From positions 1,531,538-1,595,537 of the forward strand of contig NZ_KQ033885.1 of the NCBI RefSeq assembly GCF_000967265.1: a stretch of 64,000 bases of DNA, read 5' to 3'. Position 1 is the stretch's first letter. Each line of letters begins with the position of its first letter. Source of the stretch: Bifidobacterium mellis (GTDB taxonomy: Bacteria > Actinomycetota > Actinomycetes > Actinomycetales > Bifidobacteriaceae). Positions 13,834-19,648 of this stretch are shown piece after piece. The notes under the pieces were generated by a model. The model was not told where the DNA came from, did no database searches, and saw only the letters and a list, made by a program, of their open reading frames with translations. A program made the translations under genes and the position numbers.

Positions 13834-14970
<1,137 letters not shown>

Positions 14971-15000: not shown

Positions 15001-17196
15001 TTAGAGCATGCAGCTGACGCAGCCCTCGACCTCGGTGCCCTCCAGCGCCTGCTGGCGGATCCTGATGTAGTAGAGGGTCTTGATCCCCTTGCGCCAGGCG
15101 TAGATCTGAGCCTTGTTCAGGTCGCGTGTGGTGGCCGTGTCGGGGAAGAAGAGGGTCAGCGAGAGCCCCTGATCCACATGCTGGGTGGCCTCGGCGTAGG
15201 TGTCCACGATCTTCTTCCAGCCGATCTCGTAGGCATCCTCGAAGTAGTCCAGGTTCTCGTTGGTCATGTAGGGGGCCGGGTAGTAGACGCGCCCGATCTT
15301 GCCCTCCTTGCGGATCTCGATCTTGGATGCGATCGGATGGATGGAGCTGGTGGAGTGGTTGATGTAGGAGATGGACCCGGTCGGGGGGACGGCCTGGAGG
15401 TTCTGGTTGTAGATGCCGTCCTTGAGGATGGCCGCCTGGAGTTCCTTCCAGTCCTCCACGGTGGGGATGTGGACCTGATACTGGTCGAAGAGGTCCTTGA
15501 TCCGCTGGGTCCTGGGCTCCAGGGAACGGCTGCCCTCGGTGTACTTGTCGAAGTAGTTCCCCTGCCCTGCCGGCTTGGCGTAGTCGGACTTGGCGAAGGA
15601 GGCGAAGGCCTTCCCCCGCTCCACGGCCAGGGCATGGGAGGCCCTGTAGGCGTGGTAGGCCACGGTCATGAAGTACATGTCCGTGAAGTCCAGCCCCTCC
15701 TCGGACCCATAGTGGATGCCCTCGCGGGCCAGGAAGCCATGGAGGTTCATCTGGCCCAGACCGATGGCATGGCCCTCGTCGTTGCCCCGCTTGATTGAGG
15801 GGACGGCCTCGATGTTGGTGTGGTCGGAGACGGAGGTCAGGGCCCGCACCGAGGTCTCGACCGTGTCGGCCAGGCCGCCGTCCATGGCCTTGGCGATGTT
15901 CAGGGACCCCAGGTTGCATGAGATGTCGCGGCCGATATGCTCGTAGTTCAGGTTCTCGGAGTAGGTGCTGGGCTCCTGGACCTGCAGGATCTCCGAGCAG
16001 AGGTTGGACATGGTGATCCGGCCGTCGATGGGATTGGCCTTGTTGACCGTATCCTCGAAGAGGATGTAGGGGTAGCCGGACTCGAACTGGATCTCGGCCA
16101 GGGTCATGAAGAAGTCACGGGCATCGATGTACTTCTTGTGGATTCGCTTGTCCTTGACCATCTCCTCATAGTGCTCGGTGATGGAGATGTCGGCGAAGGG
16201 CTTGCCGTAGACCCGCTCCACGTCGTAGGGCGAGAAGAGGGCCATGGGCTCCTTGCGCTTGGCCAGCTCGAAGGTGATGTCGGGGATGACCACGCCCAGG
16301 GCCAGGGACTTGATGCGGATCTTCTCGTCCGCGTTCTCCCGCTTGGTGTCCAGGAAGCGCATGATATCGGGGTGGTGGGCCGACAGGTAGACGGCGCCGG
16401 CACCCTGGCGGGCACCCAGCTGGTTGGCGTAGGAGAAGGAATCCTCCAGGAGCTTCATGACCGGGACCACGCCGCTGGACTGGTTCTCGATGTGCTTGAT
16501 GGGTGCGCCCATCTCGCGCAGGTTGCTGAGCAGCAGGGCCACGCCGCCGCCCCTCTTGGACAGCTGCAGGGCGGCGTTGACGCCGCGGGAGATGGACTCC
16601 ATGTTGTCCTCGATGCGCACCAGGAAGCAGGAGACCGGCTCGCCGCGCTGGGCCTTGCCCAGGTTCAGGAAGGTCGGGGTGGCGGGCTGGAAGCGGCCGG
16701 AGATGATCTCATCCGTGTACTTCATGGCTGCCTGCTCATCCCCGTCGGCCAGCTCCAGGGCCACGGCCACGCAGCGCTGGGGGAAGTCCTCCAGGTAGCG
16801 CTTGCCATCGAAGGTCTTCAGCGCGTAGGAGGTGTAGAACTTGAAGGCGCCCAGGAAGGTCTCGAATTCGAAGCCGCTCTCGGCCGCATGCCTGTAGATC
16901 CTGTCCAGGAACTCAGGGGTGTAGCGATCGAAGACCTTCCGGTCGTAGTACTCGTGATCCAGGAGGTAGGCGATCCGCTCGGCCGTGGAGGGGAAGGTCA
17001 TGGTGTTGGGCCCCACGTGCCGGTCCATGTATTGGCGCTCGGCCTCGTGGTCCTTGTCGAACTGGATCCTGCCGTCCTTGTCATACAGGTTCAGCATGGC
17101 ATTCAGAGCATGGTAGTCGTGAGCCGGATCGAAGGTCTCCTCATCCTCGGATGCGGTCCTGTCCAGGGCCAGGGACGTGTCCTCGTTTGCTCCCAT
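15001..17196 (-). CDS. nrdE: Class Ib ribonucleotide reductase alpha subunit NrdE (731 aa)
   Basis: Catalytic subunit reducing ribonucleoside diphosphates. Active-site cysteines are visible in GEPVSCFLV and SNLCSEILQ, with the NLCSEI cysteine followed by a catalytic Glu and the later cysteine region [10 protein letters not shown]. The C-terminus ends GCVSCML, the redox CxxC that exchanges with NrdH/thioredoxin. No N-terminal ATP-cone, as expected for class Ib. ATG 17196 (MGANEDTS) is chosen over ATG 17211 because AAAGGA lies 7 nt before it. It follows nrdI. It is the only alpha subunit in the window, so both NrdF proteins presumably dock on it. No nrdH is present. Confidence 0.96.
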
Positions 17197-17247
17197 CGGG
17201 TGTCCTTTCATGAATATGGCAGTGATGATACGTGTAATGAAATCGGC

Positions 17248-17745
17248 TCAGGACTCGGGGTGGTTGCGGAAGAAATCCACAACCCCGCGGCGGACCTTCT
17301 CCTGGTCCTCCTTGGTGCCCATGAGCTCGAAATAGTAGAGGAAGGGCACATTGCACTTGCGGGAGATGATGTCCCCCGCCATGCAGAAGGCCTCCCCGAA
17401 GTTGGTGTTGCCCGAGGCGATGACCCCGCGGATGCCGGCCCGGTTGGCCGGGTCGTTCAGAAAACGCTTGATCTGCGGCATGACCGCCTTCTTGGCCGAT
17501 CCTCCCCCATATGTGGGGACGATCAGGATGTAGGGCTGCCGAATGTTGAGCGGCGGATCCTTGGGCCTCAGAGGGATGCGGAAGACGTCAATCCCCTCGT
17601 CGTCCAAATGGCAGTTGGCGATGAACCGGGCGGTGTTGCGCGAGGCCGAAGAGAAGTAGACCACGGCCCCCAGGCGCTGGCCCTGGGCGGCGAACTCGGG
17701 AGCGCTGAGCTCCGAATCTGTCCCGGCGGTCTGCTGTTGCTCCAT
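17248..17745 (-). CDS. nrdI: Flavodoxin-like RNR activase NrdI (165 aa)
   Basis: Flavoprotein that delivers the oxidant used to assemble the radical cofactor of NrdF. FMN-site motifs are visible: VVYFSSASRNTARFI (phosphate loop), [13 protein letters not shown] and VIASGNTNFGEAFCMAGD. ATG 17745 has a clear AGGAGGAAGC RBS. It is first of nrdI-nrdE(-nrdF) and preceded by a leader of about 95 nt and an NrdR-type box pair. The N-terminal 25 residues are an extra polar tail. Confidence 0.95.
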   Translation of the reverse strand: MEQQQTAGTDSELSAPEFAAQGQRLGAVVYFSSASRNTARFIANCHLDDEGIDVFRIPLRPKDPPLNIRQPYILIVPTYGGGSAKKAVMPQIKRFLNDPANRAGIRGVIASGNTNFGEAFCMAGDIISRKCNVPFLYYFELMGTKEDQEKVRRGVVDFFRNHPES

Positions 17746-17840
17746 GCTTCCTCCTGATCAGGCCATCCAGAGCCTGTCTTGACGGTGATGCCCGCCCTGA
17801 GGACGGACCGATCAGAACCCGCCCAGCGCGAGCCTGAACT

Positions 17841-17882
17841 ACTATATGTGCTATCGATATCAAAAACGGTGAGCATATATAG
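17841..17882 (-). promoter_or_regulatory. Paired NrdR boxes upstream of nrdI-nrdE
   Basis: Two AT-rich near-palindromes, ACTATATGTG (17841-17850) and GCATATATAG (17873-17882), with centres exactly 32 bp apart. This is the three-helical-turn spacing known for NrdR repressor boxes upstream of RNR operons. They lie about 95-135 nt upstream of nrdI. Confidence 0.7.
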
Positions 17883-17920
17883 GGTTTTCTGTGCCCAATA
17901 TCACACCGGTTCCAACTGGC

Positions 17921-18985
17921 CTAGAAGTCCCAGTCGTCATCGTCCGTGGACTCGGAGTGCCCCATGACGTAGGAGGAGCCCGAACCCGAGAAGAAATCAT
18001 GGTTCTCGTTGGCCGATGGCGACAGGGCCGCCAGGATCTCCGAGCTGACATCGGTCTGGTCGGCTGCGAACCTGGCCGGGTAGCCCAGGTTCATCAGCGC
18101 CTTGTTGGCATTGTAGCGAACGAAGGCGAAGACGTCCTCGACGAAGGGGAAGCCCTCATAGATCTGCCCGGAGTAGACCATCTCCAGATCGTAGAGCTTG
18201 TCCAGCAAATCATTGGTGAACTTCTCCAGCATGGCCTGGTCGGCCTGGGTCCTCTCCTCCAGACCCCGCTGATACTTGTAGCCCGAGTAATAGCCGTGGA
18301 TGGCCTTGTCGCGCAGGATCAGCCGGATCATGTCGGCCGTGTTCATCAGCTTGGCATGGCTGGAGAAGTAGAGGGGCAGGTAGAAGCCGGCATAGAGCAT
18401 GAGGGAGGAGAGCATGGTGGAGGCCACCTTGCGCTTCAGGGGATCCTCGCTGACATACTCGTGCAGGACCGTGTGGACGCGCTCCTGGAGGACGTCGTTG
18501 GCCACGGCCCAGCGGTAGGCCTTGTCGATCTCCTCGCTGGAGCAGAGGGTGGAGAAGACCGAGGAGTAGGAGCGGGCGTGGACCGACTGCATGAAGGCGA
18601 TATTGGTATAGATGGCCTGCTCCTGCTCGGTCCGGGCGTGATCGATCTGTACCAGCTCGCCGATGGTGGCCTGGGTGGTGTCCAGCATGGTCAGTCCGGT
18701 GAAGACGCGGACCGTGGTCTGGCGCTCGTGATCGGTCAGGGTGTTCCAGGAGGGTATGTCATTGGACAGGGGCACCTTCTCGGGCAGCCAGAAGTTGGAG
18801 ACCAGGCGGTTCCAAACTTCCAGATCCTTCTCGTCGGTGATCTTGTTCCAGTTGACCGGGCGAATCCTGGCCTCAGGGGTGACCCGGTACTGGGGCGGGG
18901 TGATGGATTGGCGCATCATCTCGTCGTCGGCATAGACGCCGGCCTCTGACTTGGCGCTCTCTTTGGTGCTTTCCTGCTGGCTCAT
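17921..18985 (-). CDS. nrdF2: Class Ie (QSK-type) R2 protein, metal-free DOPA-radical NrdF2 (354 aa)
   Basis: Second R2 beta subunit. It aligns along its length with NrdF but three of the four metal-binding glutamates are changed: Glu to Gln133 (FMQSVH), Glu to Ser193 (MLSSL) and Glu to Lys227 (RDKAIHGYY). Asp102, His136, His230 and the radical Tyr140 (ARSYSSVF) remain. Gln/Ser/Lys is the signature of class Ie R2 proteins, in which a post-translationally hydroxylated Tyr (DOPA) carries the radical without metal and which need NrdI for activation. The tail ends DDDDWDF, identical to NrdF, so it should use the same NrdE. An N-terminal extension of about 25 residues is unique to this copy. Its ATG overlaps the nrdI2 stop (ATGA), so the two are coupled. 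Confidence 0.92.
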
Positions 18986-19470
18986 GACAAAACCGCCTTT
19001 CGTGAATCAGTCGACTGCTGCTGGAGCTGCACTCCCATTCCGGCCAGGATGGCCCTGACCGCTTGAACATCCTCCGAGGTGCCCAGCAGCTCGAAGCGAT
19101 AGAGCTCAGGGACGCCGCACCGGCGGGCTATCAACGGGCCGGCTGCGCAATAGGCGCTGCCGAAGTTTCGGTTGCCCGAGGTGATGACCCCGCGAATCAG
19201 CCCGCGGTTGACCGGATTGTTCAGGAAGTGGATGACCTGCTTGGGCACGGCTCCCTTGGCTGACCCGCCGCCATAGGTGGGCACCAGCAGAAGGTAGGGC
19301 GTATCCATAACGGGCATGGGCTGGCGCCGCTCATACAGGGGGATGCGGATGGGCCCCTCCACGCCCAGCCGCTGTACAAAGCGGTGGGTGTTGTTGGAGA
19401 CGCTGGAGAAATACACCAGCCTGGAGGCGCCATCGGGAGGATCGTGCCGATCCACATCTGCTGAGGACAT
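18982..19470 (-). CDS. nrdI2: Second NrdI, partner of the class Ie NrdF2 (162 aa)
   Basis: Flavodoxin-like NrdI paralogue with the same FMN motifs as the first copy ([45 protein letters not shown]) but clearly divergent in sequence. ATG 19470 is chosen for the AAGGAG RBS 9 nt upstream and because the upstream frame crosses the promoter. It is coupled to nrdF2 by an ATGA overlap. In class Ie systems NrdI supplies superoxide for tyrosine hydroxylation, which explains a dedicated copy; that role here is inferred from family knowledge. Confidence 0.92.
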
Positions 19471-19495
19471 AGTGACTGCTGCTCCTTGATAAACA

Positions 19496-19537
19496 CTATA
19501 TATTGGATAAAATTGTCCAGCCAACCACAATATATAG
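19496..19537 (-). promoter_or_regulatory. Paired NrdR boxes and promoter of nrdI2-nrdF2
   Basis: CTATATATTG (19496-19505) and CAATATATAG (19528-19537) are reverse complements of each other with centres 32 bp apart, matching the spacing at the nrdI-nrdE promoter. On the minus strand TTGGCT and TATATA with a 16-nt spacer lie within this stretch, so the proximal box covers the -10 region, ideal for repression. Confidence 0.75.
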
Positions 19538-19648
19538 GTTTATCCAGGGCGACACAAGTTCACAGGAGCAAAACCACCCCCGCTGTGAGATTCCATACAA
19601 GAACGGAGACGGCCATCATTTACATTTACGCTGGCGCCCTTACGACCT

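Follow-up and report, generated by a model that had tools for sequence, protein, structure and literature searches.

The nrdI2-nrdF2 gene pair of Bifidobacterium mellis very probably encodes a class Ie ribonucleotide reductase radical subunit of the QSK kind together with an NrdI flavoprotein, and we propose that this subunit carries a DOPA radical without a metal centre. The pair lies in the window (the whole stretch of 64,000 nucleotides that was analyzed) just upstream of nrdI1-nrdE-nrdF1. A preliminary description of this DNA had already assigned NrdF2 to class Ie, and the ligand residues, the phylogeny, and the identity to the characterized Gardnerella protein all support that assignment.

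Gene organization and the active site of NrdF2

The features of the locus are as follows.

18982..19470, minus strand: nrdI2, flavodoxin-like NrdI, 162 aa (TIGR00333, PF07972, match to 3N39, tree)
17921..18985, minus strand: nrdF2, predicted class Ie QSK radical subunit (R2e), 354 aa (DQHYSKH, QSK clade, PF00268)
17248..17745, minus strand: nrdI1, NrdI of the bifidobacterial class Ib lineage, 165 aa (TIGR00333, tree)
15001..17211, minus strand: nrdE, class I catalytic subunit (R1), 736 aa (TIGR04170, single PF02867 match)
13834..14829, minus strand: nrdF1, class Ib metal-dependent radical subunit, 331 aa (DEHYEEH, TIGR04171)
19493..19540, no strand assigned: NrdR-box pair upstream of nrdI2-nrdF2, with boxes at 19493-19508 and 19525-19540 (32 bp apart)
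17839..17885, no strand assigned: weaker NrdR-box pair upstream of nrdI1-nrdE-nrdF1, with boxes at 17839-17854 and 17870-17885 (31 bp apart)

The order of transcription on the minus strand is nrdI2, nrdF2, a 175-bp gap, nrdI1, nrdE, and nrdF1. An ATGA shared by nrdI2 and nrdF2 makes these 2 genes overlap, and both the overlap and the open reading frames with their coordinates were as initially described. We placed the start of nrdI2 at the ATG at 19470, which is preceded by AAGGAG, because the TTG at 19530 given as start by mechanical ORF calling would make the gene run through both NrdR boxes. All 5 proteins were named as expected by Pfam and NCBIfam. NrdI2 scored above the curated cut-off of the NrdI family (TIGR00333, 149.7 bits with a cut-off of 74.65; PF07972, 144.4 bits) and had E. 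coli NrdI as best PDB match (3N39, E 6e-46); FMN binding and activation of an R2 protein by NrdI2 would be expected from this family. NrdF2 matched PF00268 (268 bits), NrdI1 matched TIGR00333 (138.1 bits), the nrdE product matched TIGR04170 (1158.5 bits), and NrdF1 matched TIGR04171 (476.6 bits). The latter, the general NrdF model of NCBIfam, also matches NrdF2 because it does not separate the 2 kinds by their ligands. An identical NrdF2 occurs in B. choladohabitans and a 99% identical one in B. apousia, both honey-bee gut species, and the genome analyzed is likewise that of a honey-bee-associated Bifidobacterium.

To locate the ligand positions, NrdF2 was aligned with R2 proteins of known structure. 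Its residues 102, 133, 136, 140, 193, 227, and 230 are D, Q, H, Y, S, K, and H. A gap-free phmmer alignment with E. coli NrdF (3N37, offset +35) placed them on D67, E98, H101, Y105, E158, E192, and H195, of which Y105 is the tyrosine and the other 6 residues are the ligands. With the Gardnerella R2e protein (8RAG, gap-free, offset +10), they fell on D112, Q143, H146, Y150, S203, K237, and H240, exactly the residues named in the crystal paper of that protein (PMC11846895). The 2 alignments thus agree with the preliminary description, according to which Asp102, His136, His230, and Tyr140 are kept and the 3 ligand glutamates are replaced: Gln133, Ser193, and Lys227 do occupy 3 of the 6 ligand positions. 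The VPK variant of class Ie (Val, Pro, Lys) is ruled out by the same residues. The nearby NrdF1, 58% identical to NrdF2, is the normal metal-dependent protein it had been said to be, with the full DEHYEEH set and therewith the six-ligand motif D...EXXH...E...EXXH of class Ib; this motif is absent from NrdF2, which has QXXH, S, and KXXH instead. Compared with class Ib NrdF proteins (E. coli 3N37 and NrdF1), NrdF2 has the same fold, tyrosine, and radical path but the 3 ligand glutamates replaced.

In a survey of about 100 NrdF sequences, each full-length protein was either DQHYSKH or DEHYEEH, without intermediate ligand sets (a divergent NrdF-like frame, described below, was counted apart). Since all full-length proteins fall into these 2 sets, the ligand replacement in NrdF2 is not a chance event. 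At 19 further positions, the QSK and class Ib groups were split at >90%, several of which lie close to the site along the chain (for example, S234 for I, L197 for F, and A199 for S), and W66, D226, and the tail residue Y339 are the same in both groups. By homology to known R2 proteins, W66-D226-H136 and Y339 would form the radical route.

Phylogeny, selection, and distribution of the QSK subunit

The best PDB match of NrdF2 is the QSK R2e protein of Gardnerella vaginalis (Bifidobacterium vaginale; 8RAG/8RAH), its closest solved relative (PMC11846895), with an E value of 1e-181, no gaps over 339 residues, and all 7 active-site residues in register. In a tree of 90 NrdF sequences, the QSK (n = 50) and class Ib (n = 40) proteins were on opposite sides of a single branch (SH-aLRT 100), with NrdF2 among the QSK proteins and NrdF1 following the bifidobacterial line. 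The QSK proteins of the Bifidobacteriaceae (Gardnerella, B. thermophilum/boum, B. bohemicum, and the bee group) formed one group (support 99), which suggests that, in the sampled sequences, the QSK subunit entered or arose once for the family.

We also analyzed gene content in the B. mellis genome and across the genus. The genome has 2 NrdF, 2 NrdI, 1 NrdE, 1 class III NrdD, 1 NrdR, and 1 NrdH, the gene of the latter located elsewhere. Because nrdE is the only class I R1 gene found (single PF02867 match), its product is predicted to be shared by NrdF1 and NrdF2; one full-length NrdE was likewise found in 19 of 19 genomes tested. Both R2 proteins and 2 NrdIs are present in 13 of 27 genomes of the genus, both R2 proteins and a single NrdI in 5 (G004, G009, G012, G022, and G026, the first and the last 2 being single-contig assemblies), and only the class Ib R2 in the remaining 9. 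The single NrdI was of the NrdI1 type where read. The gene order nrdF2-nrdI-nrdE-nrdF1 in G022 and G026 equals that of the window locus without nrdI2, and nrdF2 stands alone, away from nrdIEF, in G004, G009, and G012. The absence of an intact nrdF2 from 9 of 27 genomes indicates that this gene is dispensable in the genus. One of these 9, G002, has a broken nrdF2 upstream of an intact nrdI1-nrdE-nrdF1 (L119:7506-7936, minus strand), in which codons 75–256 are deleted and the frame is changed.

This broken copy and the lack of the gene in several genomes would fit a reading in which NrdF2 is a class Ib copy, now decaying or repurposed, that has lost its ligands and no longer serves dNTP production. 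We regard this as highly improbable: a single clade of 50 sequences has the QSK set without exception, the radical-path residues of NrdF2 are kept, and the only class I R2 protein of Gardnerella is of this kind and is active in vitro (PMC11846895). Moreover, the dN/dS of nrdF2 was low, 0.04–0.06 against 3 bee-group relatives and 0.08 against G022. Against the same 3 relatives, the values were 0.01–0.02 for nrdF1, 0.02–0.03 for nrdE, 0.03–0.05 for nrdI1, and 0.12–0.18 for nrdI2. All 5 genes are thus under constraint, nrdI2 least, and the faster evolution of NrdI2 than of NrdI1 may reflect relaxed constraint.

Three further observations were made on related loci. In Gardnerella, B. thermophilum/boum, and G032 (L005, L006, L007, L008, L009, L010, and L125), a QSK nrdF follows a bifidobacterial nrdI-nrdE at the position of the class Ib nrdF, as though the radical subunit had been exchanged within the operon. 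G001, and none of the other 26 genomes of the genus, carries the divergent NrdF-like frame mentioned above (L131:3763-5268, minus strand; about 11765-13270 of contig C1), which encodes 501 aa with an insert of roughly 120 aa and is repeated near the other contig end; at its ligand positions the first Asp is Glu and the last Glu and His are Ile and Ser, and the tail SDDDWDF is kept. Near it, a 199-aa frame (L131:6407-7006, minus strand) matches NrdE in its C-terminal part only (85% to residues 542–736 of the window NrdE) and looks like a truncated nrdE copy.

Lineage of NrdI2 and NrdR boxes of the 2 operons

NrdI2 and NrdI1 are neighbours with 54% identity, as could be expected if nrdI2 were a recent duplicate of the adjoining nrdI1. 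In a tree of 54 NrdI sequences, cleaned of many short and long ones, NrdI2 grouped with NrdIs encoded in QSK operons of Corynebacterium, Streptomyces, Leucobacter, Brevibacterium, and others (95/88), whereas NrdI1 fell among the bifidobacterial class Ib NrdIs, as did the NrdIs from the QSK operons of Gardnerella and B. thermophilum. A topology joining the bee-group NrdI1 and NrdI2 in one clade was rejected (p-AU 0.00014), and with it the reading that nrdI2 was recently copied from nrdI1, to which we give very little probability. An old split, with all Bifidobacteriaceae NrdIs in one clade, was not rejected (p-AU 0.164). The simplest reading would be the acquisition of an nrdI-nrdF(QSK) pair followed by loss of nrdI2 from most lines, where the local NrdI took its place, a history drawn from a short protein with a long NrdI2 branch.

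NrdI2 had also been called the dedicated NrdI of NrdF2. The 2 genes are indeed coupled by ATGA. That NrdI2 is the exclusive maturase is less well supported: 5 relatives have both R2 proteins with one NrdI, and the NrdI used by the QSK R2 of Gardnerella belongs to the bifidobacterial class Ib lineage. A dedicated NrdI is thus a feature of the bee group and is not required for keeping a QSK R2. These same 5 genomes with R2b and R2e, and the class Ib lineage of the NrdIs in the Gardnerella and B. thermophilum QSK operons, are what would be seen if NrdI1 and NrdI2 were interchangeable and either could mature both R2 proteins. This reading is otherwise compatible with NrdF2 being a class Ie protein, and we consider it evenly poised: NrdI2 is retained beside NrdI1 in 13 genomes under purifying selection, and its clustering with other QSK-operon NrdIs suggests some fit to QSK R2 proteins.

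Promoters were searched for NrdR boxes with the NrdR-box consensus, and sites were scored out of 24 over the window. The boxes upstream of nrdI2 scored 22 and 21 and were the 2 best sites and the best pair in the window; those upstream of nrdI1 scored 16 and 17, a score that ties with a chance pair in the window. Relatives have box pairs at the same position, and such pairs are also present upstream of the lone QSK nrdF in G004, G009, and G012. An nrdR gene in the genome and box pairs about 31–32 bp apart upstream are what characterizes an NrdR regulon, and nrdI2-nrdF2 and nrdI1-nrdE-nrdF1 are probably both under NrdR control. The switch by metal supply or oxidative state suggested in the preliminary description is hypothetical: boxes at both promoters argue for dNTP-linked control of both operons. 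Crude scans of the 2 promoters with non-bifidobacterial consensuses detected no DtxR-, Fur-, MntR-, or Zur-like sites above the window background. Another NrdR-box-like pair (31 bp apart, summed score 37) is located at about 900-946 of L116, about 600 bp upstream of a class III nrdD match.

Proposed mechanism and relation to known systems

In the mechanism that we propose, NrdI2 would most likely supply an O2-derived oxidant to NrdF2, which would hydroxylate Tyr140 to DOPA and, lacking a metal centre, form a DOPA radical, Lys227 taking the place of metal site 1. The radical would then pass via W66/D226/H136 and the tail Tyr339 to the single NrdE, also used by the class Ib NrdF1. DOPA, metal absence, NrdI dependence, and activity with the shared NrdE are expected for NrdF2 by analogy with characterized relatives. 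The Gardnerella R2e protein contains only trace metal, its Tyr150 is converted to DOPA only when NrdI is co-expressed, and DOPA-R2 with reduced NrdI and R1 forms dCDP (PMC11846895). That QSK R2 proteins can work with R1s shared with normal R2s was concluded from gene content in that paper (PMC11846895). More tentatively, one R1 may serve a metal-dependent and a metal-free R2, the lineage-distinct NrdIs each preferring their own R2 and the choice of NrdI or oxidant setting which subunit is active; we consider this extended version possible but rather doubtful.

The closest likeness is to Gardnerella R2e, a member of the same Bifidobacteriaceae group, which has the same Q/S/K and other active-site residues, about 78% identity to NrdF2, and an NrdI partner. 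In Gardnerella, however, the QSK protein is the only class I R2 and is encoded within nrdHIEF, where the NrdI belongs to the bifidobacterial class Ib lineage. In the window, the QSK protein is an additional R2, encoded in an nrdIF pair next to a class Ib nrdIEF; its NrdI comes from a different lineage, and nrdH is located elsewhere. The catalogue of John and colleagues (2025) gives 275 QSK genes, 104 of them in an nrdIF pair with a separate nrdE(F) (PMC11846895). As described there, these 104 stretches resemble the window in having nrdI-nrdF(QSK) without its own nrdE, and nrdE with a non-QSK nrdF separately; in the window the 2 stretches lie in tandem on a single strand, with 175 bp between them. 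Similarly, Streptococcus pyogenes combines a class Ib Mn-type and a class Ie metal-free R2, each with its NrdI, but its class Ie protein is of the VPK variant and each operon has its own R1 (PMC8463856), in contrast to QSK and one R1 in the window. The class Ie operon of S. pyogenes is reported to be repressed by Fe and Mn (PMC8463856), and the idea of a metal backup has already been published for this species (PMC8463856, section 8).

Altogether, the QSK kind and the arrangement of nrdIF beside nrdE(F) were already known and catalogued in 2025, and the window is a sound further example; the modest new points are the tandem order, an NrdI2 from a separate lineage, and relatives in which 2 R2 proteins go with a single NrdI. 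The locus offers a compact natural comparison of 2 R2 chemistries and 2 NrdI lineages with one R1 in one organism, alongside relatives that lack nrdI2 or nrdF2. It would be a usable system for the NrdI needs of DOPA maturation and for the timing of metal-free R2 use, a question raised as open by a 2021 review.
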